38,235 bases of DNA from NCBI GenBank assembly GCA_015228925.1, contig JADGCQ010000028.1, positions 1-38,235 of the forward strand. The letters run 5' to 3'. A program made the position numbers and the translations under genes. The DNA is from Magnetococcales bacterium (GTDB taxonomy: Bacteria; Pseudomonadota; Magnetococcia; Magnetococcales; UBA8363). This document shows, piece after piece, positions 9,514-38,105 of this stretch; the first letter of the stretch is position 1; each line of letters begins with the position of its first letter. The notes under the pieces were generated by a model that was not told the origin of the DNA, did no database searches, and worked only from the letters and a program-made list of their open reading frames with translations.

Positions 9514-10356
9514 TCAGCGGCCACAAGTTAACAACCGGAAAATATTCTGGAGGCGACGGGTGACTGGGCCGGGAGTTCCTGAAGCAACCGGGACGCCATT
9601 AATACTGGTGATGGGGGTGATTTCGCCTGTGGTACCGGTCAGAAATGCTTCCTGGGATTGCTGAAATTCCGGGAGGGTCATGGGGGACATGCGTGTGGGT
9701 ATACCGGATTGAGCGCAAAGCTCAAGCACAGCGGTGCGGGTTATCCCTTCCAGGATAAGATGAGAGGCCGGATGCGTGACGACCATCCCGTCCATTACAG
9801 CCATGACGTTGGTATGACTCCCTTCTGTTACAAAGCCATCGCGCACGAAAACCGCTTCCACGGCACCAACGTCTATAGCTTGTTGATGCGCCAACACATT
9901 CGCGGTGAGTCCGATAGTTTTGACATCACAACGAGCCCAACGGATATCCGGGGTAGTGATGATGGGGACACCGTCTCTGGCATGATGTTGTTTAGAAGCA
10001 AACGGTTTAACCCAAGCCATGCAAGTCAGAGGGGTTGTCGGGGGTGGAAAGCCATGCGTTCGGGGAGCACTACCACGGGTGACTTCCAGATAGAGGATGG
10101 CGTTCTGTCCAGTTAAGCCGTTGACCTTGAGCAGAGAGTCCGCCACCCCGGCGAACTCTGGAAATTCAGTGCGGGCAAACCGCATAAACACAGCACCATG
10201 TGACAGCCGCTTCAAATGGTTATCCATCCTAAACCAAAGTCCGTCATAAGCCCGCGCAACTTCATATAAACCATCCGCAAACAGAAACCCCCGATCTTCA
10301 GGGGACAAAAAGCACGCCTCTGCCGGCATAATTTCACCATTAAAGTAATATAGCAT
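9514..10356 (-). CDS. dat: D-amino-acid aminotransferase
   Basis: A 280-aa class IV (fold-type IV) PLP aminotransferase, closest by eye to Bacillus D-alanine aminotransferase, which moves amino groups between D-amino acids and 2-oxoacids. Landmarks: SPEDRGFLFADGLYEV, the carboxylate-binding VTRGSAPRTHGFP (R and H as in the Bacillus RGTSPRAHQFP), the PLP lysine in WARCDVKTIGL, VTEGSHTNV, and LTGTTGEITPI. All are intact. The ATG at 10356 has GGTGAT upstream; the longer frame begins at a TTG. It is divergent from the asparaginase/racemase operon. If that operon makes D-Asp, this enzyme could convert it to oxaloacetate, but the link is inference. A housekeeping D-Ala/D-Glu role is equally possible. 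Confidence 0.88.
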   Translation of the reverse strand: MLYYFNGEIMPAEACFLSPEDRGFLFADGLYEVARAYDGLWFRMDNHLKRLSHGAVFMRFARTEFPEFAGVADSLLKVNGLTGQNAILYLEVTRGSAPRTHGFPPPTTPLTCMAWVKPFASKQHHARDGVPIITTPDIRWARCDVKTIGLTANVLAHQQAIDVGAVEAVFVRDGFVTEGSHTNVMAVMDGMVVTHPASHLILEGITRTAVLELCAQSGIPTRMSPMTLPEFQQSQEAFLTGTTGEITPITSINGVPVASGTPGPVTRRLQNIFRLLTCGR

Positions 10357-10428
10357 AGTCTTATCACCCAACAATTTCAAAAGATTTTTTCGGTTGACAT
10401 TAGGCGTGATCTATCATATATCAATCAA

Positions 10429-10468
10429 CATGATTTTTTCCAAACATATTCGAGTAGAAAAAATCATG
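10429..10468. promoter_or_regulatory. 12-bp inverted repeat upstream of dat (operator candidate)
   Basis: CATGATTTTTTC at 10429-10440 and GAAAAAATCATG at 10457-10468 form a perfect 12-bp inverted repeat with a 16-bp spacer. On the minus strand the inner arm overlaps the region where the dat promoter should lie (a TTGGAA and a TATATG/TATGAT-like box are near). Centre-to-centre spacing of about 28 bp suits a dimeric DNA-binding protein. The HTH protein of the neighbouring operon is an obvious but unproven candidate. It could also fold as a bidirectional terminator, because the arms carry T and A runs. Confidence 0.5.
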
Positions 10469-10517
10469 AGGATTTTAGGAAGTTTTGTTTAGGTTAATAA
10501 AATCACCTTAAATGGGG

Positions 10518-10945: not shown

Positions 10946-12289
10946 ATGGATGTCGCCAAAGCTATTCAAAATATTACCGCTGGCATCAAAGGGGTTAACC
11001 AAAAAAGAGTGGCCTTGGAGGCCGGTGTTAATCAGGGGCAGCTTTCCCACTGGCTCCGCAACGGCGTCGATTTTTCTGAGGAAAATATTAGCAAGGTAAT
11101 TAAAACAGTTTTATTTATTGTTGATGAAGAGAATAAAAAGAGTGGAAATTTTGATTATTATGAAAAATATGGAGAAGAGCTTTCGGTCCTCAATTCCTCT
11201 CCAATATTTCAAAAACTATTGTTGGAAGTCATGGATATTGCTCCCGACCAGCCAATTCCGGCGAATAACCCTGCATTGATGGCTCAACCTGGACATGCCT
11301 TAATGACTAAAGAAATCGGCCAGAATCCGCCGATACGCATCGCCATTATCGGGGGAAGAAAAACGGGCAGAAGCAGTGCTCTCCTCAAAGCTAAAGCCGA
11401 CTTGGCAAGAAAAAACTACCACTCCGTCATTTTTGATGGCCGTCTTTTCGCTGCTGAATATGACGGTGACGACGAACCCCTGTTTAGATGGCTGGATACC
11501 ACCGCCCGTAGTCAATTGCCAGGCAGACAGTATAAAATAACATTGCGCAAAATAAGCGACTTTGAACCCTGGGTTAAAAAAAATATTTTGCCCAACCTTC
11601 CAGGCGATAAGCAACTCGTCTTTATGATCGATCACCTGGATGAATTTCCTCCCAAAGCTTTCGCCAGTCTGGCTTTCGGGTTTCATGACCTGTTTGATAA
11701 AGAGGATGAGAACAATCCCGTCAGCCTCCTGGTCTCGTACAATGAAGCCGGGGGTAAACTTTTCGACGTAAACGCGCCAGCCAGTACATTTGCCCGCCAA
11801 CTTCGTACCATTTCCCTGGGCAACACCCAGGATGCGGAGATTGTGCGCTTGTTGGAAACCATGGAGTCCACCAGGGATCATGCCCTGGAATGGAGCGAAT
11901 TCGCCTGGAATCGCTTTTCCGGACATCCCTATCTCACCTTCAACTGGGCACATCTGGTAGCGCGGGGTGAGAAACCAGAAAAGGCATTGGAGACTATGGC
12001 TGTTTTGCTCAAGGAGCGTCTGCTGCTGCCTTTGCTGGAGGATCTGGCACGTTGCAATCCATCTCAGGAAATACTGACTTGGCCGAGTAAGGAAAATGTG
12101 GTGGAACGTATTTTCACTGGAATTTTTGGTCAACAAGAAAATAGCAACCTAGTCCTCAGATCTTATATGTCCCAATGGATGGTGGATAGTGGATTATTCC
12201 GTTGGGAGCAGCAGGCAAACGGGCAACGGGGCATCGTCACCATAACCCCGTGGATCTCGGATAAAATTGACCAGATTCTGAAAAATTAG
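10946..12289 (+). CDS. HTH plus AAA_35-like ATPase (first gene of operon)
   Basis: A 447-aa protein. An N-terminal helix-turn-helix is visible around residues 15-52 (NQKRVALEAGVNQGQLSHWLRNG), with the pattern of Cro/XRE-type DNA binders. A P-loop NTPase domain follows (about 130-445). Walker A is GGRKTGRSS (136-144), with arginine 142 where lysine is expected. Walker B is VFMIDHLDE (225-233). The 'FSGHPYLTF' segment (about 324-332) and a winged-helix-like tail (GLFRWEQQANGQ) parallel the next protein's AAA_35 domain, so the two may be paralogous partners. AAGGGG precedes the ATG at 10946; the frame is open to 10844. It may be regulator and sensor at once. The missing lysine makes ATP hydrolysis doubtful. 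Confidence 0.75.
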   Translation: MDVAKAIQNITAGIKGVNQKRVALEAGVNQGQLSHWLRNGVDFSEENISKVIKTVLFIVDEENKKSGNFDYYEKYGEELSVLNSSPIFQKLLLEVMDIAPDQPIPANNPALMAQPGHALMTKEIGQNPPIRIAIIGGRKTGRSSALLKAKADLARKNYHSVIFDGRLFAAEYDGDDEPLFRWLDTTARSQLPGRQYKITLRKISDFEPWVKKNILPNLPGDKQLVFMIDHLDEFPPKAFASLAFGFHDLFDKEDENNPVSLLVSYNEAGGKLFDVNAPASTFARQLRTISLGNTQDAEIVRLLETMESTRDHALEWSEFAWNRFSGHPYLTFNWAHLVARGEKPEKALETMAVLLKERLLLPLLEDLARCNPSQEILTWPSKENVVERIFTGIFGQQENSNLVLRSYMSQWMVDSGLFRWEQQANGQRGIVTITPWISDKIDQILKN

Positions 12290-12294
12290 CCACC

Positions 12295-14601
12295 ATGGCA
12301 GACTCAATTTTACCGAGTGATCTATCCAACGGTAGGGCGGTAGCCAAGCCTTTTATGCCCGTCAGTGCCATTGATGATCGAAAGGCAGTTTACGTCAGCA
12401 GGGAGGCGGATACGCAATTGTTCGACCTGCTGTCGGAAGGACGACATTGTAATCTGCATGCAGGTCGCCAGAGCGGAAAAACAAGTTTGTTGCGCAAGGT
12501 GAGGCGACAGCTTGAAGCCCTTGGTGATCTCTGCTGCGAAATAAACTGTAGCCTCTATTTTATCCAGTCTCCTTTCGGAGAAGCGGTGAAACATGTGGCG
12601 GCATCTCTACAATCCGAAATTCGTCTCCAACTGTCTGATCACAGATTGCCGACTCTTCGTGTCCGCAAAAGGGAAAATCCCTCAAAGTTTTTCGTGCGGA
12701 TACTGGACCATCTGGCGGCTAATGCGCCAACAGGAAAACGCATCTTTGTGATGTTGGATGAATTGGACAGTTTGACCGTTCACTCCCCAGGCGAATTAGT
12801 AGATTTTTTCCTACACCTGCGGGAATACATCCAGAATCAGGCCTCCCATCAACCTCGTGTGGTGTTGCTCTTCGTGTCGGTATTGACGCTTCAAGAGATG
12901 ATCATGGAATATCATTCGGGTGGAACAGGAATCGCCAGCCTTGCCAATGTTCCTCTGTGTCCATTTGCCAACACGGTCAAGGTGCGGCGGCAGATGGAAG
13001 AACAGGGATTCCCTGGTCAGGCAGACGATACTATCGATAAGCTGTTGACCCGTGTTATCGACCTGACCGGGGGACAACCTTATCTCACTTCCTTGTTCGC
13101 TCGAGAGTTGCAGTGTAGCGATGATCCAGAAACACGGCTTACATTTGTTGCCGACGAGGCTGTGAAAGAGCCACGAAGTTTGGTGACCAATCACCTGAAT
13201 GGGATTGACAAGCAGTTGACTGATATGGGGTTACGCCTGTTTTCCCTGGTACAAATCTATAAGGAAATTCATCAACAGTCGGAGACGGTGCGTGGTAGAA
13301 GAAATACGCAGATCATCGGGACTCTGGAAAATCTTGGATTGATTCGGCGTGAGACAACGGGTCACTATCGGGTCTCAAACCCTATTTATTACGCGCGTCT
13401 TACCCCTGATTGGGCAGAAAACCTCGTAAACCAGTACGAAAAGTTATCTGGATCCCGTTTTAGAACACGTCAAAGGTTGGGTTGTACATTTAACAGAAAG
13501 GTCGCCCTCCTCATGGTCGGTGGTACCATGGGGATGATTACAGAGAAAGGTCAATCGCATTTCATGGGTGCTCAACAGCGTATCGAAAGATTTATCGAGG
13601 AAGAGCTAAACCAAGTGACTCCGGTGCAACCTTTTTTCCTTTGGGAGCTTGATGGGATCAATGTGACCCCTAAAAATTGGCTTAACATCGCCCAATGGAT
13701 TGACCAGCGGCGCGATGAATACGAGGGATTTGTTATTGCCCATGGCACCGACACCCTGGCCTACACCGCCAGCGCAGTGGCTTTCATGTTGGGCCGAGGG
13801 TTGAATCGTCCGGTGGTTTTTACCGGTTCCCAGACTACCATTGATCAACTCCATGGCGATACCCGCCAGAACTTTTTCCGCGCCGTATATGCCGCTGCCA
13901 ATGACCATGCCATACCCGAGGTACAGATTTTTTTCGGCGACCGAGTGATGCGGGCAGTACGGGCAGAAAAGAGTGATGACCGCACTTACGATGGTTTTGA
14001 ATCGCCAGGTTGGCCGCTTCTAGCCCGGGTTACGGAAAACTACCTAGTCAACCAATTCGCCCTGGATACCAAACACCAACAGCGCATCCCGTACCACTTT
14101 CAACCTTATATCGCCGACAGCATCATGCTCATCACCCTGGCACCGGGGATTCAACCCGAACCTTATATGGAGATTATCCAGCTATTACACGACAGAGGGA
14201 AACCCTTGAATGGCATCCTGATCACCACACCAGGTGTAGGCAACATTCCATCTGAGGATCCTTTCAACTTTCGTCTTCTGATTCAAGAAGCCATTTCCTT
14301 AGGAATACCGGTGCTTATTGCCAGCCAAGTACCCATCAACCCCTATACCCAGGATCAGTATGAAATGGCCAGCACACCGGCCAAATATGGGGCCATTCCT
14401 GCCGGTAACCTGACCCTGGCCGCCGCCTTGACCAAATTCGCCTGGGTCATCGGATGTGTACGCCATGAAATGGGTGCCGAGGCAATTGCCGATCCAGAGA
14501 ATAAACTTAAAGAAATCAAAACCCGTATGCGCACCATCTATATCGGCGAGGAAGGCGAATACGGCGAGCAGTTGCAGCGTTCCCACCCCGGAGACAAATA
14601 A
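12295..14601 (+). CDS. AAA_35 ATPase fused to L-asparaginase
   Basis: A 768-aa fusion. Residues ~25-370 form an AAA-like (AAA_35) NTPase: VYVSREADTQLFDLL opening, Walker A GRQSGKTS (57-64), Walker B FVMLDELDS (151-159), the LTGGQPYLT motif (257-265), and a winged-helix end (LIRRETTGHYRVSNPIY). Residues ~400-768 are a type I-like L-asparaginase, which hydrolyses asparagine to aspartate and ammonia. The nucleophile Thr411 (MVGGTMG), the Thr485-Asp486 pair (AHGTDTLAYTASA) and Lys559 are present. The substrate-binding serine of DS is Gly454 (LDGINVTP), so specificity or activity may differ. It starts 5 nt after the upstream stop with no ribosome site, so it is probably translationally coupled. 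The layout suggests an NTP-controlled asparaginase. Confidence 0.87.
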   Translation: MADSILPSDLSNGRAVAKPFMPVSAIDDRKAVYVSREADTQLFDLLSEGRHCNLHAGRQSGKTSLLRKVRRQLEALGDLCCEINCSLYFIQSPFGEAVKHVAASLQSEIRLQLSDHRLPTLRVRKRENPSKFFVRILDHLAANAPTGKRIFVMLDELDSLTVHSPGELVDFFLHLREYIQNQASHQPRVVLLFVSVLTLQEMIMEYHSGGTGIASLANVPLCPFANTVKVRRQMEEQGFPGQADDTIDKLLTRVIDLTGGQPYLTSLFARELQCSDDPETRLTFVADEAVKEPRSLVTNHLNGIDKQLTDMGLRLFSLVQIYKEIHQQSETVRGRRNTQIIGTLENLGLIRRETTGHYRVSNPIYYARLTPDWAENLVNQYEKLSGSRFRTRQRLGCTFNRKVALLMVGGTMGMITEKGQSHFMGAQQRIERFIEEELNQVTPVQPFFLWELDGINVTPKNWLNIAQWIDQRRDEYEGFVIAHGTDTLAYTASAVAFMLGRGLNRPVVFTGSQTTIDQLHGDTRQNFFRAVYAAANDHAIPEVQIFFGDRVMRAVRAEKSDDRTYDGFESPGWPLLARVTENYLVNQFALDTKHQQRIPYHFQPYIADSIMLITLAPGIQPEPYMEIIQLLHDRGKPLNGILITTPGVGNIPSEDPFNFRLLIQEAISLGIPVLIASQVPINPYTQDQYEMASTPAKYGAIPAGNLTLAAALTKFAWVIGCVRHEMGAEAIADPENKLKEIKTRMRTIYIGEEGEYGEQLQRSHPGDK

Positions 14602-14625: not shown

Positions 14626-16404
14626 ATGTCTATTGAACCTGTATCTTTGAGCGCATTGGAACAAGATGACCGCGTTGATGAGTTGGTGCGGAATTTTATG
14701 CAGGCCTTGATGCTGGAGAGCGGTTTTGCCAAGCTTAAGAAAGATCAGCAGGAACAGGTCAGATCGGTGCTGAATTCGGTGATCAAGATGCGTTTTGACA
14801 GCGTTAGTTCTTTTCAGAATGTCGTGATCGGTTTGCTGCGCTCCATTGCCCCTGATCTTGAAAAGTACATCACCATCGCCATCGACAGTGCCCGCGACAT
14901 GCTCAAGGATAATAAAGGGGTGCTAGTGATTTATACCGGTGGAACCATCGGCAGTGCCCCCAAAGATCTCGATGACCCAGACAGCCCGCAGATTGTCAAA
15001 CCCTGGGGTGATCTTAAAAGTGCAGGTCCCATACTGGGACGCCTGGGCTATCCGGTTGATGCCATCGCTTTTGTTGAACCTCTAGACTCCTGCAATGTCG
15101 GGCCGCGCCATTGGTTAACCATGGTGCGCATCATCAAGGAAAACTACGGCAATTACTCTGGTTTTGTCATTTTACACGGCACCGACAGCATGGTATTTAC
15201 CGCCTCGGCACTCTCCTTCATGATCACCGAATTGGACAAACCGATCGTAATCACCGGGTCGCAAATCGCAGGCATCGTCAATCCGCGCAACGATGCCCAC
15301 CAGAACATGATCACCGCCATTATGTTGGCCAACCCCGAAGCTCACAAGCTGGCATTAATTCCAGAGGTGTTCATTTCGTTTGGCAACCTTATCGTGCGGG
15401 GTAATCGCGCCAAAAAAATGAACGTTGTAGAATATCAGGGTTTCAACTCTCCCAATTATCCCCTGTTGGGCAGGGCTGGCGACCACATTGTCATTGAGCG
15501 CAAGCAGATTCGTCGTCCCTCGGAGATTGGAGTGCAGTTTAGCGAACTGATGGACACCAACGTCATCATCGTTGAGGTATTCCCTGGCATGCAAAACTCC
15601 CCGGTATTGTCCAACATTCTGCAAGACGAAAACCTGCGCGGTGTGGTATTGAAGGCCTACGGGGCAGGCAACATCCCTACCGACGCCCCTTTTCTTAAAA
15701 TGTTCACCGACTTTATCCAACGGGGAGGCATCGTGGTATGCACCACCAGTTGTCCAGCAGGTGAGGTGGTGATGGGACTCTATGAAACAAGCCAGATCCT
15801 GGTGGATATCGGCATCATTGGTGGATTTGACATTACCCCTGAGGCAGCCCTGTGCAAATTAATGATGCTGTTGGGTAACTTTGAAGATCTGTCGGAAGCC
15901 AAACGATTGATGCAGCAATCCATTGCCGGTGAACAGCGTCTGAGTCTTGAAACCACGGTTTTGGCTGGCAAAAAGAGCATCCAATCCGGGGGCATGGTTG
16001 AGTTGTCAAGTTCCTTAAACAGCAAGGAAGACAACATAGAACGGATTGAAAAGGTGATGTTAGTTTTCAAGAATGCCAAACTCGATCCAGGCAATGACGC
16101 CCCCGATGCCCGCGCCGCTGTTAAACTGTTTTTGGATGGTGAGACTACTGAGGAAGGTGAAAACTTTCTGGGCAGTTTCTCCCGGCGTCGGGTTCCCAGT
16201 AATGCGTTGATAACGAATAGCACCATTGGTGAAAGTCTTGTAATCGATCTGACGCTCAAAAAACATCACTTTCTTAAAAAGGAAAGCAAAGGGCGTATAA
16301 AAGTCGAACAGAAGGTGCGCATCAACGTCGCGTTGGAGGGGGAAGGTGGGGCTTCGTTCTCCTGGGAGGACGCCGAACTCAAGATTTACACCATGGACCA
16401 ATAA
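14626..16404 (+). CDS. L-asparaginase with extra N- and C-terminal domains
   Basis: A 592-aa protein, far longer than ordinary asparaginases (about 330-350 aa). Residues 1-95 are helical (a possible death-fold-like or oligomerisation module; not identified). Residues ~97-435 are a full type I-like asparaginase: Thr107 (VIYTGGTIG), Asp154-Ser155 (LDSCNVGP), Thr186-Asp187 (LHGTDSMVFTASALSFM) and Lys264 (RGNRAKK), all catalytic positions intact. Residues ~470-592 are a beta-rich tail (KVMLVFKNAKL ... RINVALEGEG) of unknown type. It is 24 nt after the previous gene with AGGGAAA upstream. It probably supplies the competent asparaginase of the pair, and hetero-oligomers with the AAA fusion are likely. 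Unlike GatD, no RNA-binding beta-barrel precedes the enzyme. Confidence 0.88.
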   Translation: MSIEPVSLSALEQDDRVDELVRNFMQALMLESGFAKLKKDQQEQVRSVLNSVIKMRFDSVSSFQNVVIGLLRSIAPDLEKYITIAIDSARDMLKDNKGVLVIYTGGTIGSAPKDLDDPDSPQIVKPWGDLKSAGPILGRLGYPVDAIAFVEPLDSCNVGPRHWLTMVRIIKENYGNYSGFVILHGTDSMVFTASALSFMITELDKPIVITGSQIAGIVNPRNDAHQNMITAIMLANPEAHKLALIPEVFISFGNLIVRGNRAKKMNVVEYQGFNSPNYPLLGRAGDHIVIERKQIRRPSEIGVQFSELMDTNVIIVEVFPGMQNSPVLSNILQDENLRGVVLKAYGAGNIPTDAPFLKMFTDFIQRGGIVVCTTSCPAGEVVMGLYETSQILVDIGIIGGFDITPEAALCKLMMLLGNFEDLSEAKRLMQQSIAGEQRLSLETTVLAGKKSIQSGGMVELSSSLNSKEDNIERIEKVMLVFKNAKLDPGNDAPDARAAVKLFLDGETTEEGENFLGSFSRRRVPSNALITNSTIGESLVIDLTLKKHHFLKKESKGRIKVEQKVRINVALEGEGGASFSWEDAELKIYTMDQ

Positions 16405-16406
16405 CC

Positions 16407-17771
16407 ATGGCAAACGGGTCCGTTCATGGTACGCTGGATATGGAGGATGCTCCACTTCGTGTTCGGCGTACCGTCGCCTTTCTGCGTGAGAATCATGTCT
16501 GGCATGTAATCTCGCGCAACTCCATGTCCACCAGTTGTCAGGATGCCGCCAATCGACGTAATCGCCTAGGTGCCGCTGGGATTCCCCTCCATGATGAAGT
16601 AAAATCGTTGCACATGGTGGGGTATTTCAGCGATGGCATACGTCGTCATGTGTTGTTGCATTGTCGCGCCAATGCGCGGTTCAATCTTGATGCTGCTGCC
16701 GCCGTTTTGCAGACAACACGCCCCCTTGAGCGGCTTTCCGCCGACGAACTCATGAATGAATTCGGTGCTCGATACGGCACGGTCAACCCGTTTTCCGATG
16801 CCGAGGAGTGCATCCAACTCTTTGACGAAAACATGCTGTCCCGCTATACCCCCCCACACACGATGATGACCAACGCCGGCGATCTGACATGGGCAGTCGA
16901 ATTTCGCCCCCAAGAACTCATCACCGCCCTGGGTCGTTACTCATCCAAGGTATCATTGGCGCGTATCACCGGTCGGGAAACTCAGCACCATTCCCTACCA
17001 GTCTTTGGTATCATCACCGGGAATGGCCCCGAAAGCGGAATGACCCTGTGGAAACAACTGAATGGTTTCATCTACGACTCGTTGTCTGAAGTTGACAGGC
17101 TTCATGGTGACTTATCGTATCCCAGAATATGTATTCAATCAATTCCAGAAATGGGTCTTTCCATGGAGTTAGTCCAAAGGGAGGACGATGTTTGGGGCAT
17201 CATTCAGCAAGCTGTGGGCCATTTCATCTCACAGGGAGTAACGCACATTGCTATCGCGTGCAATACGACGCAATATTTTTCTGAACGTATACGAGAGATC
17301 TGCGCACCCCATGGAGTCATTTTCATCTCTTTAGCCGACGTTACTTTGGAATACATCCGCGAAAAAAATATCGATGACATCACGATCATTGGCATACCAA
17401 TCGTCGCTGACCTCGGTCCGTACAGTGCTTATGCTCCATTAAAAGACCTGCATGTCCATCCTGTAAAAGACATCGCGAAATCCCATCTTCAGGAGTTGGG
17501 TTATATGGTCAAACAAATGGGAACCGATGCCCAGGACAGCAAAGCACTCAACAAACTTGTCCATATTATCAATTCCGGCGTCTCAACTCGCCGCGTCATT
17601 ATCGCTCTGACTGAAATCTCGGTTCTGTTGGGACGCTTTCCCAAGAAACGTCGTAACATTGGGGACAAAGAGATCATCGATCCTTTGGAATTGTATAGTC
17701 AGAAACTTGCTCGAATTTTTATTGACGCCCTGCCCAGCACCACTCCTGACACCATCGATAGCTGGGAATAA
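16407..17771 (+). CDS. YbaK-type tRNA deacylase domain fused to Asp/Glu racemase
   Basis: A 454-aa fusion. Residues ~15-132 follow the YbaK/ProX editing fold: LGAAGIPLHDEVKSLHM with Lys66 at the conserved VKTL lysine, ARFNLDAAAAVL, and the ending LSADELMNEFGARYGTVNPF. Such domains deacylate mischarged tRNAs. Residues ~198-445 are an Asp/Glu racemase domain: FGIITGNGPESGMTLWK, then IAIACNTTQYF with Cys285. The second catalytic cysteine (usually in GCTE) is replaced: VIIALTEIS has Leu401. Full two-base racemisation is therefore doubtful; one-way epimerisation, a lyase-like reaction or mere binding are alternatives. It starts 2 nt after the asparaginase stop. The fusion links aspartate chemistry to aminoacyl-tRNA quality control. 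Confidence 0.8.
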   Translation: MANGSVHGTLDMEDAPLRVRRTVAFLRENHVWHVISRNSMSTSCQDAANRRNRLGAAGIPLHDEVKSLHMVGYFSDGIRRHVLLHCRANARFNLDAAAAVLQTTRPLERLSADELMNEFGARYGTVNPFSDAEECIQLFDENMLSRYTPPHTMMTNAGDLTWAVEFRPQELITALGRYSSKVSLARITGRETQHHSLPVFGIITGNGPESGMTLWKQLNGFIYDSLSEVDRLHGDLSYPRICIQSIPEMGLSMELVQREDDVWGIIQQAVGHFISQGVTHIAIACNTTQYFSERIREICAPHGVIFISLADVTLEYIREKNIDDITIIGIPIVADLGPYSAYAPLKDLHVHPVKDIAKSHLQELGYMVKQMGTDAQDSKALNKLVHIINSGVSTRRVIIALTEISVLLGRFPKKRRNIGDKEIIDPLELYSQKLARIFIDALPSTTPDTIDSWE

Positions 17772-28745: not shown

Positions 28746-29297
28746 TCAGGATTTCAGTAAGCTAATAATTCCTTTAATAAATACATTAAAACTATGTGAA
28801 GTATTCCCTTCTCGTGTCATAACCTTGCCCATAGCTCTGGATCCAGCAATTTTTTGATACGATGGAGCCAGTCGCGTCAGTTCTTGAACAGGGTTACCCA
28901 GCTTGTCAGGGTTTCGAAATTTTAGATTCGTTTGCTGTTTGGCTGCCCCTCGGGCACTCAAGGCTTTTTCTACCGCCGCAAGATCTCCCAGATACCACGA
29001 CTCCAATTCACGACAGGCGATGCGGATCAGGGTTTGTGGGTGGCCCCCTTCGCGACTTAGATTTCGTAACTTTTCTTTGACTTCGCAGCAGTTTCCAGAA
29101 TCCTTGTCTCGAAGTACAACGAAGCGACTATTGGGTTGTTGCCAATTTCGTAATTTTCGCGGTAATTGTTTTTCCAGATCCTGTTTTCCCTCGAACACGA
29201 TAAAAAGAGGCGTTTCAATATCGGGTAAGAACCGTGGTAGCAGCTCCTGCAATAACGCTTTGGCGGAGGCCTCTTCAAGAAAGAATACCAGTTGCAT
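28746..29297 (-). CDS. DUF4276 TOPRIM-like nuclease (PARIS AriB-like)
   Basis: A 183-aa protein of the DUF4276 family. The opening LVFFLEEASAKALLQELLP carries the acidic pair Glu8-Glu9 of a TOPRIM-type fold, FVVLRDKDSGNC supplies Asp64 and Asp66, and RIACRELESWYLGDL is the family's conserved mid segment. TOPRIM-like proteins cut nucleic acids; in the PARIS defence system the DUF4276 protein AriB is the effector that the AAA protein AriA releases. It begins 1 nt after the ATPase stop (TGA-T-ATG), so translation is coupled. It is shorter than PARIS AriB, so a related but distinct system is possible. Confidence 0.75.
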   Translation of the reverse strand: MQLVFFLEEASAKALLQELLPRFLPDIETPLFIVFEGKQDLEKQLPRKLRNWQQPNSRFVVLRDKDSGNCCEVKEKLRNLSREGGHPQTLIRIACRELESWYLGDLAAVEKALSARGAAKQQTNLKFRNPDKLGNPVQELTRLAPSYQKIAGSRAMGKVMTREGNTSHSFNVFIKGIISLLKS

Positions 29298-29298
29298 A

Positions 29299-30483
29299 TC
29301 AGGGTTCGATCCCTTTAAAAAATCCCTGCTTCCATAAATATCCCATTTTATCACCATCGTTCATATACGCCACGAGTTGCTGATCATCCTCGGCGCGGTG
29401 AACTTGGGTGTAGCCATCCTGTTTGACGAACCAAAAAACCTCATTGATGGCACATGCATTGAGAAAATCTGGCGAATGGGTAGAGACGAACACTTGACCA
29501 CCCTGTTTGGCATAATCGCGAAACTCTTCCGCTAATTCTTCTAAAAGGGATGGATAAAGCTGGTTTTCTGGCTCTTCGACGCACAACAATGGGTGCGGGC
29601 GCGGATCAAAAAGCAAAATCAAATAGGCCAACATTTTGATGGTACCATCGGAAACATAACGGGCTAGAAAGGGGTCTTCAAACGCTTGATCTTGGAAGCG
29701 CAACAAGACGCGGCCTTCTTCGGTAGTTTTGGAATCCACCCGGGAAATTCCGGGAATCCTTTTAGATAACTTTTCAAGAATCTTATCAAATACCTTACGG
29801 TGGCGTGTATAAAGATACTGAATGACCAGTGAAAGATTTTCACCTTCCGTAGAAAGATGTTCCGCATGTCCTGCATCCTGTTCAGGGCGGGCGCGATTGA
29901 TATGGAAGTCGGAAACATGCCAGTTTTCGATCAAATCCCCCAATTCTTTGACCGCTGGAAAACGCTCAAACTGCGCTAACCCCTTGATGGCCAATATATC
30001 TGGAGACTTCAGTTGCTGATTTTCTCTGTTGAGGCTCTGAACGTTCGTGACCTGTTCCAACTCATTGGTGACGGCATAACCGCTTCCCCTAGAAAAATCA
30101 AGAAAATGCCAGGGCTGGCCGTGGCTACCCCGACGGTATTTCAGGATTTCTCGGCTGACGACGGGGTCTCCATTGAGTTCACCGATGTTGAGAGCGTAAG
30201 TTACCAGGGGACCACCCGTTTTGATTCGGAACTTGAGTTCGATTTCGATCTCGCCATCCACGGCCCGACTGCGGACCTCCTGGAAACCCCGGTTGCCACC
30301 CTGCTTGATCAAGGCTGTATGAATATTGCTTGAGAACGCCTCTCGCAGGAAAGCAAACACGTTGAATAGTGTCGATTTTCCGGTACCATTGGCACCCACC
30401 AGGATACAGAAACGGGGAATATTCTTGAGTTCAACGTCGCGGAAACATTTAAAGTTTTTCAGACGTATTGATTCGATCTGCAT
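29299..30483 (-). CDS. SMC/Rad50-like AAA ATPase (PARIS AriA-like)
   Basis: A 394-aa ABC-type (AAA_15/AAA_21) ATPase. It starts MQIESIRLKNFKCFRDVEL, typical of OLD and RecF-like proteins. Walker A is GANGTGKST (30-38), the signature-like loop is YVSDGTIKML (277-285), Walker B is LLCVEEPENQLYP (299-311), and the switch His is in VFVSTHSPDFL (331-341). All are intact. Such ATPases often pair with a nuclease as phage-defence modules (OLD, PARIS, Gabija-like). The next gene is DUF4276, the exact PARIS combination. It lies 19 nt downstream of rlmN on the same strand, so it may share a transcript with a housekeeping gene. Confidence 0.85.
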   Translation of the reverse strand: MQIESIRLKNFKCFRDVELKNIPRFCILVGANGTGKSTLFNVFAFLREAFSSNIHTALIKQGGNRGFQEVRSRAVDGEIEIELKFRIKTGGPLVTYALNIGELNGDPVVSREILKYRRGSHGQPWHFLDFSRGSGYAVTNELEQVTNVQSLNRENQQLKSPDILAIKGLAQFERFPAVKELGDLIENWHVSDFHINRARPEQDAGHAEHLSTEGENLSLVIQYLYTRHRKVFDKILEKLSKRIPGISRVDSKTTEEGRVLLRFQDQAFEDPFLARYVSDGTIKMLAYLILLFDPRPHPLLCVEEPENQLYPSLLEELAEEFRDYAKQGGQVFVSTHSPDFLNACAINEVFWFVKQDGYTQVHRAEDDQQLVAYMNDGDKMGYLWKQGFFKGIEP

Positions 30484-35447: not shown

Positions 35448-35582
35448 TTTTCTCAGGGTTTTGTTGGGGTATCGAATGCTTTTTGCACGAAACTTGCTTC
35501 TTTTCTGGGCGGTTTGACGTTGGGGAAAAAGTTCCCTGAAAGCCTGTTCATCACATCCATTCTTTGCGATTTCCGGCACCCC

Positions 35583-37202
35583 ATGATCTGTTCAAGACCC
35601 ATCGGTCGTTTTCGGCGTGTTTACCTCTGGCTCTTTTGTTTCGTCGGTGTGTTCGGCTCGGCGGTCCCCGGTTTTGCTGACAAATCGGGGTTGTGTGGTG
35701 TTGCCCGGGAAATTGCCACCCAGGGGGTTGCCCGTTTCGATACCCAACATAACCTGGGCTTGGCGGCGATTCGGCGCGCCTATGATTTATGCGGCTCCGA
35801 TCCGGGTATCGCCTTTAACATGGGTCTCGCTTGGTATCTCGATAAACAACTTCCGAAAGCCCGGGAAATTTGGGAAACCCTTTATAAGACGACCCGTGAT
35901 TTTCCCGTCACCGACCCTTTGGCTTTGAAGGTTCTCACCAATTTGGCATGGCTCCGGTTTGAGATGGGTGATGATGAGGAGGCCCATTTGTTGGCATTTG
36001 CGGGACTTCGACAACATCCGGGTCATTTGGCTTTGGCCCATACCAAGTTTATGGCGTTGATGCGGATGGCCCGTTATCTTGAAGCCTATGACTGGCTGAC
36101 CCGCGACAAACTCCCCGGCAGCCTCCCCTTGGAGTGGAAGAATCAGACGGCGGAATACATGGTGGAAAATCTTTGGCGTGAGTTTCGCAGCGGTAAACAT
36201 TTGTCATCCATCAAGAATGCGGTCGATTTTTATATCAAGGAATACCCGGAGGAACCCATCTTTATTCGGGCTAAGGAGCAACTGTTGGTGGCGGAAGTGG
36301 ATCCCAAAGGGGAGATTCCGCCGATTGTGGCACTGCCCGATAGTTCCTGGCCCAAGAGTGGCAATATCGATGATCGGGTTTTGGAGTTGGATCCCCTGCT
36401 GGCGTCGCAGCCGACGTTGGAACCGTGGAAAAAGCGCGAAGATGCCTTTGCGGTTGTGGTGGGTATTGCCCGTTATCGCAACATCGAGTCGCGGCATTAT
36501 GGAGACCGTGATGCGGCGAACATGGCTTCCGTGTTGACACGCCGAGGGATTTTCTTGGCCGACCCGGAGCATGTGCGGGTACGCTTGGATGGTCAGGCGA
36601 CGCAGGAGACGATTCTGCAAGATATCGAATGGTTGGCTAGTAAGGGGAGGATTCATCCCAATGCCGTTTTATTGTTTTATTTTTCCGGGTTGGGTGCCCC
36701 TTGGATTGCCAACGATCCCCCGGAATTTGTGGATGGATTGTTGTTACCGGTCCAAGTGGATGGGTTAAAAATCACCCCCCAGACCGCCATTTCTTTAAAT
36801 TTTTTGAAAGGATTGCTGTCGGATCTTCCCGACCGGGAAATCATTGTGATTTTGGATACCTGTTTCCATGGTCAGGGACATTGCGGCACCCGTCTTCCGG
36901 GCAAGCGTGTGGTGCCTACCCAAGGATTTTTCCAGGATACCCATGGGTGGGCACTCGCCTCGGTGCAAGGGGATGCGGGTGTCTTGGATGCGGCACGCCA
37001 GGGGGCTTTTACCTATCATTTGATCAAGGGATTTCTGGGACAGGCGGATGGGGCGGATGGTTTGGAGAGGGATGGTTGGGTCAGTCTGGGGGAGGCTTTT
37101 GGGTTGGCGCAGACCGCGTTGCGGACTCACAAACCGGCAGTGGATGGGTTTTTGACGGCTCCGGCCACGGTTCGCCTGACGCGCACGCGCGGGGAGGAAT
37201 AG
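35583..37202 (+). CDS. Secreted caspase-like protein with altered catalytic dyad
   Basis: A 539-aa protein from ATG 35583, chosen because a signal peptide begins there (RRVYLWLFCFVGVFGSAVPGFA). Residues ~40-250 are helical, TPR-like (LGLAAIRRAYDLC, GLAWYLDKQLPKAREIWETLY). Residues ~300-500 show the peptidase C14 (caspase) fold: FAVVVGIARYRNIESRHYGDRDAANM, then VLLFYFSGLG, then IIVILDTCFHG. The nucleophile Cys427 is present, but the histidine of SGHG is Leu370, so proteolysis is unlikely by the normal mechanism. It is probably periplasmic and a pseudo-enzyme. Its TAG touches the ATG of the next gene with no gap. Confidence 0.75.
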   Translation: MICSRPIGRFRRVYLWLFCFVGVFGSAVPGFADKSGLCGVAREIATQGVARFDTQHNLGLAAIRRAYDLCGSDPGIAFNMGLAWYLDKQLPKAREIWETLYKTTRDFPVTDPLALKVLTNLAWLRFEMGDDEEAHLLAFAGLRQHPGHLALAHTKFMALMRMARYLEAYDWLTRDKLPGSLPLEWKNQTAEYMVENLWREFRSGKHLSSIKNAVDFYIKEYPEEPIFIRAKEQLLVAEVDPKGEIPPIVALPDSSWPKSGNIDDRVLELDPLLASQPTLEPWKKREDAFAVVVGIARYRNIESRHYGDRDAANMASVLTRRGIFLADPEHVRVRLDGQATQETILQDIEWLASKGRIHPNAVLLFYFSGLGAPWIANDPPEFVDGLLLPVQVDGLKITPQTAISLNFLKGLLSDLPDREIIVILDTCFHGQGHCGTRLPGKRVVPTQGFFQDTHGWALASVQGDAGVLDAARQGAFTYHLIKGFLGQADGADGLERDGWVSLGEAFGLAQTALRTHKPAVDGFLTAPATVRLTRTRGEE

Positions 37203-38105
37203 ATGAAGGGGTTTATGTTCCGCTTGGGCCTGGGGATGATGGTGGGATGGTGGAGTTTTATCCCTGCCCAGGGAGAGGCTTATCTGATCAACGAATGGGA
37301 ACGTTTGGCGTTGGCGGGGGGAGAGCGACCGCTGGATGAAGAACCGGTACCGGGGAAAAACTGGACCGATGCGTTGACGGGGATTGAATTTGTATGGATT
37401 GCGGGTGGATGTTTCCAGATGGGGTCACCGCCGTGGAAGGATGGTCGTGAACATGATGAGGGTCCGTTGCACCAAGTGTGTTTGGGGGATTACTGGCTGG
37501 CGCAAAGGGAGGTGACGCAGGGGCAGTGGCAAGCCATCATGCGGATGAATCCTTCGGCGTTTCCGAAGGGTGATGCGTATCCGTTGGAGCGGGTCACTTG
37601 GTTGGATGCGGAGGTTATCGCAGCCAATTTGAATGAACGCTATAGGGGCAAGGCCCGTATCCGTTTGCCGACTGAGGCGGAATGGGAATATGCCTGCCGT
37701 GAGCGGGGGGATGATATCGTTTATGCGGGGCGGGATGATGTGCATCGGGTTTCTTGGAACCGGGAGAATAGTTTGGGATCGACGCAGATGACCGGGACGC
37801 GACAACCCAACCGTTTGGGTTTGTTGGACATGAGTGGTAATGTGTGGGAATGGACCCAGGATAGTTATCGCCCCGATGCGTATTCCCGGCATAACGAGAA
37901 CAACCCGGGGGGGGTGGATGAGGGTTTTTTCAAGGTGATACGGGGTGGGGGATGGAAGGATGCGTCTGGGGCGTTGCGGTGTGCCAATCGTGGTTTTGAG
38001 CGGTATTTAAGCAAACGGCATGATCTTGGATTTCGTTTGGCGGCGGTGGTGGATGTGGCATCGGTGGATGGAAAACGTCCCCCTTTGTTTGAGATTCCCT
38101 TTTAA
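37203..38105 (+). CDS. SUMF1/FGE-like domain protein
   Basis: A 300-aa exported protein with a signal-like N-terminus (MKGFMFRLGLGMMVGWWSFIPAQGEA). The rest is a formylglycine-generating-enzyme-like domain: GIEFVWIAGGCFQMGSPPW, VCLGDYWLAQREVTQGQWQAI, RIRLPTEAEWEYACR, LLDMSGNVWEWTQDSY, VIRGGGWKDASGALRCANRGF and DLGFRLA. The cysteine pair used by true FGE is not seen, so it is more likely a binding or scaffold domain. It starts directly after the pseudo-caspase stop, so the two probably form a functional pair. Confidence 0.88.
   Translation: MKGFMFRLGLGMMVGWWSFIPAQGEAYLINEWERLALAGGERPLDEEPVPGKNWTDALTGIEFVWIAGGCFQMGSPPWKDGREHDEGPLHQVCLGDYWLAQREVTQGQWQAIMRMNPSAFPKGDAYPLERVTWLDAEVIAANLNERYRGKARIRLPTEAEWEYACRERGDDIVYAGRDDVHRVSWNRENSLGSTQMTGTRQPNRLGLLDMSGNVWEWTQDSYRPDAYSRHNENNPGGVDEGFFKVIRGGGWKDASGALRCANRGFERYLSKRHDLGFRLAAVVDVASVDGKRPPLFEIPF

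Follow-up and report, generated by a model that had tools for sequence, protein, structure and literature searches.

A conserved serine-to-glycine change in an NTPase-asparaginase fusion encoded by a patchily distributed gene cassette of Magnetococcales

Introduction

Asparaginases, familiar from textbooks as housekeeping or therapeutic enzymes, have an active site that hardly varies, and the bacterial enzymes are oligomers. In the E. coli asparaginases, the side chain of Ser58 in EcAII, equivalent to Ser60 in EcAI, binds the substrate α-carboxylate; Asp90 and Lys162 have been called invariant and indispensable, and binding of the substrate depends critically on Asp90 (PMC6667453). The asparaginase fold also occurs in archaeal GatD, subunit D of the Glu-tRNA(Gln) amidotransferase, where it carries an extra N-terminal domain and is tied to tRNA metabolism. 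AAA_35 proteins (PF14516) are signalling NTPases present, for example, in cyanobacteria. Modular NTP-dependent conflict systems are patchily distributed and exchange AAA, cNMP cyclase, FGE and TIR modules around a core (Kaur et al., 2020; PMC7159879); that account makes no mention of asparaginase, amidase, racemase or AAA_35.

Here we analyse a gene, p2, that joins an AAA_35 NTPase to an asparaginase, together with its neighbours p0, p1, p3 and p4, in a 38,235-nucleotide stretch of DNA (the window) from a magnetotactic-type bacterium of the Magnetococcales (assembly GCA_015228925.1, contig JADGCQ010000028.1; genome G000). The whole N and C domains of p2 align with type I EcAI/AnsA (PDB 2p2d/2p2n/2him; p2 profile, E 1e-37), and the nucleophile Thr, the Thr-Asp pair and the Lys are kept. 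Unlike EcAI, p2 has an N-terminal AAA_35 NTPase, a Gly at the Ser60 equivalent, and a paralogue, p3, in the same putative operon. GatD shares the combination of asparaginase fold and extra N-terminal domain, but in p2 that domain is an AAA NTPase, p2 and p3 fall far below the GatD cut-off (TIGR02153; 126 and 176 bits, cut-off 324), which places p2 outside the GatDE group, and no GatE-like partner is encoded among p0–p4. The surrounding cassette resembles the conflict systems of Kaur et al. in its patchiness and in the swapping of signalling modules around a core, but its core consists of amino-acid enzymes. Each of its domains is already known, and in kind it probably belongs with modular NTPase-regulated enzyme cassettes; a partial literature search turned up neither an AAA-asparaginase fusion nor this cassette.

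Results

p2 combines an intact NTPase domain with an asparaginase half lacking one substrate-binding residue

The anatomy of p2 is well supported and comprises the following features.

12295–14601, + strand: p2, AAA_35 NTPase-asparaginase fusion (ATG start, 768 aa)
12367–13359, + strand: AAA_35 domain of p2, including a C-terminal winged-helix-like part (aa 25–355, Pfam)
13498–14457, + strand: asparaginase N and C domains of p2 (aa 402–721, Pfam)
13654–13656, + strand: Gly454 codon of p2, replacing the α-carboxylate-binding Ser (residue check, alignment)

An earlier note on this DNA had described 12295–14601 as an asparaginase fused to an AAA_35 NTPase, and open reading frame and HMMER analyses reproduced both the coordinates and the fusion exactly, the enzyme half being type-I-like. 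The AAA_35 match (PF14516, aa 25–355) scores 33.7 bits against a cut-off of 27, and AAA_22 is also above its cut-off. Both asparaginase domains exceed their Pfam cut-offs (PF00710, aa 402–582, 5e-46, 157 bits, cut-off 22.5; PF17763, aa 611–721, 6e-13, 49.2 bits, cut-off 34.6), placing p2 in the asparaginase/glutaminase superfamily. Walker A (GRQSGKTS from residue 57) and Walker B (VMLDE at 152) are intact, as the note had held; nucleotide control of the enzyme half is plausible because both motifs are preserved. The enzyme residues T411, T485 and D486 (HGTDT) and K559, and G454 in place of the serine (LWELDGINVTP), likewise lie where the note had put them. Against the type I L-asparaginase model (TIGR00519, cut-off 260.5), p2 and p3 score 181 and 246 bits, both below the cut-off; p3 contains the complete Thr-Ser-Thr-Asp-Lys set, and p2 lacks one member owing to Gly454.

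Full-length relatives of p2 were found in two genomes from other Magnetococcales families, G008 (60% identity) and G026 (55%). Since these relatives, of 763 and 751 aa, have the same architecture on other contigs in other genomes, the fusion does not stem from an error of assembly or reading frame. No full-length relative was found in plasmid, phage or viral-contig collections; the AAA_35 NTPases of the plasmid and phage collections show no full-length fusion like p2, and no record there covers 80% of p2. A scan of 84,980 species with strict exact patterns from p2 alone also gave no match.

Gly454 lies inside an LDGINVTP block that is invariant among the three p2 proteins. Its alignment column holds Gly in 3/3 p2 sequences (window, G008 and G026); the other asparaginases retrieved from the phylum all have Ser (21/21), as do 3/3 p3 proteins and 3/3 asparaginases of the type B cassettes described below. 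The adjacent column is also unusual, with Ile455 in p2 versus S/A/T/Q/E/D in other asparaginases. The note had proposed comparing Gly454 across homologues, with a return of serine in all close homologues as an outcome that would count against it; both full-length relatives have Gly. Among the three p2 proteins the enzyme half is 65–72% identical and the NTPase half 45–48%, and this better conservation of the enzyme half argues that p2 is no decaying pseudoenzyme.

The fold of p2 and its T/T/D/K set are canonical, which would suit an ordinary cytoplasmic asparaginase that has acquired an NTPase domain and a neutral Gly change. We regard this as very improbable, and as the least likely of the explanations considered: Gly occurs in 3/3 p2 proteins from families whose DnaE proteins are only 60–65% identical, against Ser in 21/21 asparaginases elsewhere, and an intact paralogue is already next door. 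Binding of the α-carboxylate through main-chain N could nevertheless persist with Gly454, and this counts against a change in substrate recognition.

p2 is part of a conserved gene cassette with an intact asparaginase directly downstream

The note had offered altered substrate or a regulatory role as consequences of the Ser-to-Gly change. Conservation of the Gly in homologues agrees with that proposal, which had viewed the protein alone and missed the cassette around it. The other cassette features in the window are as follows.

9514–10380, − strand: p0, class IV PLP aminotransferase, D-amino-acid-transaminase-like, divergent from the putative operon (PF01063, 2e-40)
10423–10474, no strand: 18-nt inverted repeat (89%, 16-nt spacer), candidate operator in the divergent p0/p1 intergenic region
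10946–12289, + strand: p1, HTH + AAA NTPase (weak HTH_3 and AAA_35 matches)
14626–16404, + strand: p3, second asparaginase with the complete T/S/T/D/K set (Pfam, alignment)
16407–17771, + strand: p4, aminoacyl-tRNA editing (YbaK/ProX-type) domain + Asp/Glu-racemase-family domain (PF04073, PF01177)

The order p1-p2-p3-p4, with p0 divergent, is found in the same orientation in the window, G008 and G026, and the flanking genes differ. These three loci, from three families of Magnetococcales, constitute the type A cassette. The intergenic gaps in the window (5 nt for p1/p2, 24 nt for p2/p3 and 2 nt for p3/p4) suggest that p1–p4 form one transcript. The inverted repeat has no matching repeat at the other two type A loci. 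Next to the cassette in G026 are genes for a zinc-ribbon + guanylate cyclase + AAA_16 + TPR protein (L014:8451-11744) and a PIN-domain protein (L014:12017-12685).

The place and orientation of p0 are the same at L013 and L014. Its scores against the D-amino-acid transaminase equivalog TIGR01121 (247 bits in the window; 247, 270 and 212 bits over the three loci) are all below the cut-off of 277, so p0 is not assigned to that equivalog; D-amino-acid transaminase models are its best-scoring families despite these scores. The p1 reading frame opens at GTG 10844, with ATG 10946 as the likely start. The AAA regions of p1 and p2 are paralogues (hhalign probability 97%, E 1.3e-10). The P-loop of p1 is degenerate in the window (GRKTGRSS, with Arg in place of the Lys that the two p1 relatives keep) and its Walker B reads DH instead of DE in 3/3, for which reasons p1 may bind but not hydrolyse nucleotide.

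p3 lies directly downstream of p2 in all three type A loci, and the two proteins are paralogues (33% identity over 281 columns). p3 has specific extensions at the N-terminus (residues 1–96) and at the C-terminus (438–592, β-rich). The C-terminal 150 aa matched nothing among Pfam or PDB sequences, and a single-sequence model of this segment is β-sandwich-like at low confidence (pLDDT 64.5). Structural matches to the Kex2/furin P-domain region and to other β-sandwich proteins were weak, and assignment to these relatives was dropped in favour of the description "β-sandwich-like". With its full canonical residue set p3 may be an ordinary asparaginase, a point against a changed substrate for the cassette.

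If the asparaginase half of p2 is regulatory, it is most likely the partner of p3, given the intact paralogue directly downstream in 3/3 loci. The strict form of this idea is that this half is catalytically dead or weak and has no other task than to tether the AAA switch to active p3 within a hetero-oligomer. The adjacency of the two paralogues, the presence in p3 of every catalytic residue where p2 is without one, and the oligomeric nature of bacterial asparaginases are all consistent with it. p2 nevertheless keeps both Thr residues, the Asp and the Lys, and conservation is higher in the enzyme half than in the NTPase half, unlike what is expected of a relaxed active site. We therefore consider the strict form unlikely, and note that it is compatible with the explanation we prefer (see Discussion).

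p4 joins a tRNA-editing domain to a racemase-family domain with one catalytic cysteine

The editing domain of p4 exceeds the Pfam cut-off (tRNA_edit, PF04073, 1.3e-6, 28.9 bits, cut-off 25.5), which identifies it as YbaK/ProX-type; the type B p4 of G007 scores slightly under it (23.9 bits). In an alignment of six p4 sequences, Lys66 (DEVKSL), a candidate for the catalytic Lys of YbaK/ProX editing domains, is invariant (6/6). The second half matches the Asp/Glu racemase family (PF01177, 4.9e-4) and has the family motifs TGNGPESG and ACNTT. The first catalytic cysteine (Cys285) is kept in 6/6, and the second position is Leu401 in 6/6, where aspartate racemase 5b19 has Cys; p4 is thus not a two-cysteine Asp/Glu racemase. 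It also differs from described family members, which include EcL-DER (YgeA) and the cysteate racemase CuyB, in its fusion to a tRNA-editing domain and in a score of 55.7 bits against the CuyB model (NF052483), whose cut-off is 190. EcL-DER is a one-Cys member (Thr83/Cys197) whose activity is confined to the L form (PMC12838360; PMC12661438). Because the Cys retained in p4 is the opposite one, p4 might by analogy prefer the D form or operate in the D-to-L direction. No description of an editing-racemase fusion was found in the partial literature search. An AlphaFold model of p4 built from two sequences had a pLDDT of 38.5 and was set aside.

A second cassette type carries a different change in the asparaginase active site

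Relatives of p4 with 49–53% identity are encoded in three further genomes: G007, G023 (nNGHbin2) and G039. They belong to a type B cassette (n = 3) with the order EamA transporter, guanylate-cyclase-like + FGE protein, asparaginase without AAA domain, and p4; no p0 was seen beside these cassettes. The example from G007 (G007:C22) is as follows.

L022:84-6255: type B cassette (EamA, cyclase + FGE, HGTN asparaginase, p4, overlapping TIR_2)

Here a TIR_2 gene overlaps the end of p4; L023 and L024 are similar without the TIR gene. Type B asparaginases keep the serine and read HGTN where others read HGTD (3/3). The asparaginase has thus lost a different substrate-binding contact in each of the two cassette lineages, the Ser in p2 and the Asp in type B.

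The cassette is sporadic within the order

p4 was found in 6/398 genomes sampled from the phylum, all within the 48 of the order, and an asparaginase adjoins p4 in 6/6. Among the listed genomes of the order, no other contained an asparaginase; those of the window's own genome are p2 and p3 only. A scan of 84,980 species with strict exact patterns from the p4 alignment recovered one additional Magnetococcales genome, nNGHbin2, on the contig that is also that of G023; patterns this strict could have missed relatives in other phyla. Neither p2 nor p4 had relatives in viral contigs, and the plasmid and phage collections yielded only ordinary asparaginases, AAA_35 proteins or one racemase. The window's genome also encodes four asparagine-synthetase-family genes (TIGR01536) above the cut-off.

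p4 of the window's genome is 52.6% identical to that of the same-genus G007 and 62.3% identical to that of G008 from another family, whereas the corresponding DnaE identities are 78% and 60%; p4 relatedness therefore tracks cassette type and not species. Another genome of the genus, G005, lacks the cassette and retains synteny with the right flank (18660 onwards). GC3 is 0.50–0.59 in p0–p4 and 0.59–0.65 in the genes to the right, which is weak evidence. This distribution requires either lateral transfer or an old duplication followed by many losses, of which transfer is the simpler.

Discussion

The explanation that we favour, tentatively, is that p2 is a subunit of a transferable, switch-controlled cassette for handling amino acids in which recognition of the C-alpha groups has changed, with p3 as a possible partner. 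In this scheme p1 would probably be the transcriptional or sensor arm, sensing or repressing, and the AAA domain of p2 would probably switch the state of its asparaginase-fold half in response to nucleotide. p2 would work beside p3, possibly as hetero-oligomers. p2 has lost the Ser that binds the α-carboxylate, and the type B asparaginase the Asp used in substrate binding, so that free L-Asn is probably no longer recognised by these enzymes in the usual way. The likeliest substrates would have changed C-alpha groups, such as D-Asn/D-Gln, or Asn/Gln with a blocked carboxyl (aminoacyl ester or peptide end), because p0 is D-amino-acid-transaminase-like and p4 combines an editing domain with a one-cysteine racemase-like domain. 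Such a substrate would unite the lost Ser, the lost Asp, the single Cys of p4, p0 and the editing domain. Counting against the favoured explanation are the scores of p0 under the equivalog cut-off at all three loci, the lack of p0 beside type B cassettes, and the small number of sequences (three of type A and three of type B).

A metabolic role is not secured by these arguments, since AAA modules and the cyclase-FGE and TIR neighbours of type B are also used by conflict systems, and a defence role is possible. In an anti-phage or abortive system, the NTPase, or cyclase-FGE/TIR in type B, would sense invasion and switch on the enzymes, which would stop translation by attacking the pool of amino acids or aminoacyl-tRNAs. 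We judge this somewhat unlikely, and the strongest of the rival explanations. Such systems typically contain NTPases along with cNMP cyclase, TIR and FGE domains (PMC7159879). The cassette is sporadic and apparently transferred, its signalling modules are swapped around a constant asparaginase + p4 core, a TIR_2 gene overlaps p4 in G007, and cyclase-AAA_16-TPR and PIN genes accompany the cassette in G026. Against this stand its metabolic core enzymes and its D-amino-acid transaminase and transporter neighbours, which fit metabolism better. PADLOC gave only weak matches (E of at least 0.0036) and no good model, no asparaginase effector was found in the literature searched, and relatives of the cassette are absent from the phage, plasmid and viral collections.

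Removal of free Asn should, moreover, not alone starve translation. In the window's genome no AsnRS scores over the cut-off and GatB is present, from which Asn-tRNA is probably made by transamidation from Asp-tRNA, and simple Asn starvation is unlikely. Hydrolysis of free Asn was accordingly rejected as the default abortive mechanism. A variant in which an NTPase-gated asparaginase-fold system with altered C-alpha recognition acts on D-Asn/D-Gln or on Asn-tRNA/Gln-tRNA with p4 as partner, so that the cassette would be transferable, serve defence or competition and exchange its sensors, strikes us as doubtful.

If the favoured explanation of an amino-acid-handling cassette holds, the asparaginase fold would have been co-opted for a regulated response in stress, competition or defence, and could be a source of amide hydrolases with new specificities. 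Its active site would then have been altered in two ways, with an NTPase or cyclase module in control and with links to tRNA editing and to enzymes of D-amino acids.

Two other gene groups lie elsewhere in the window. An AAA_21 ATPase gene and a DUF4276 gene (28749–30483) make up a defence-like pair. At the window's edge (35514–38105), a caspase-like + TPR protein is followed by an FGE-sulfatase-domain protein, a pair typical of conflict systems.
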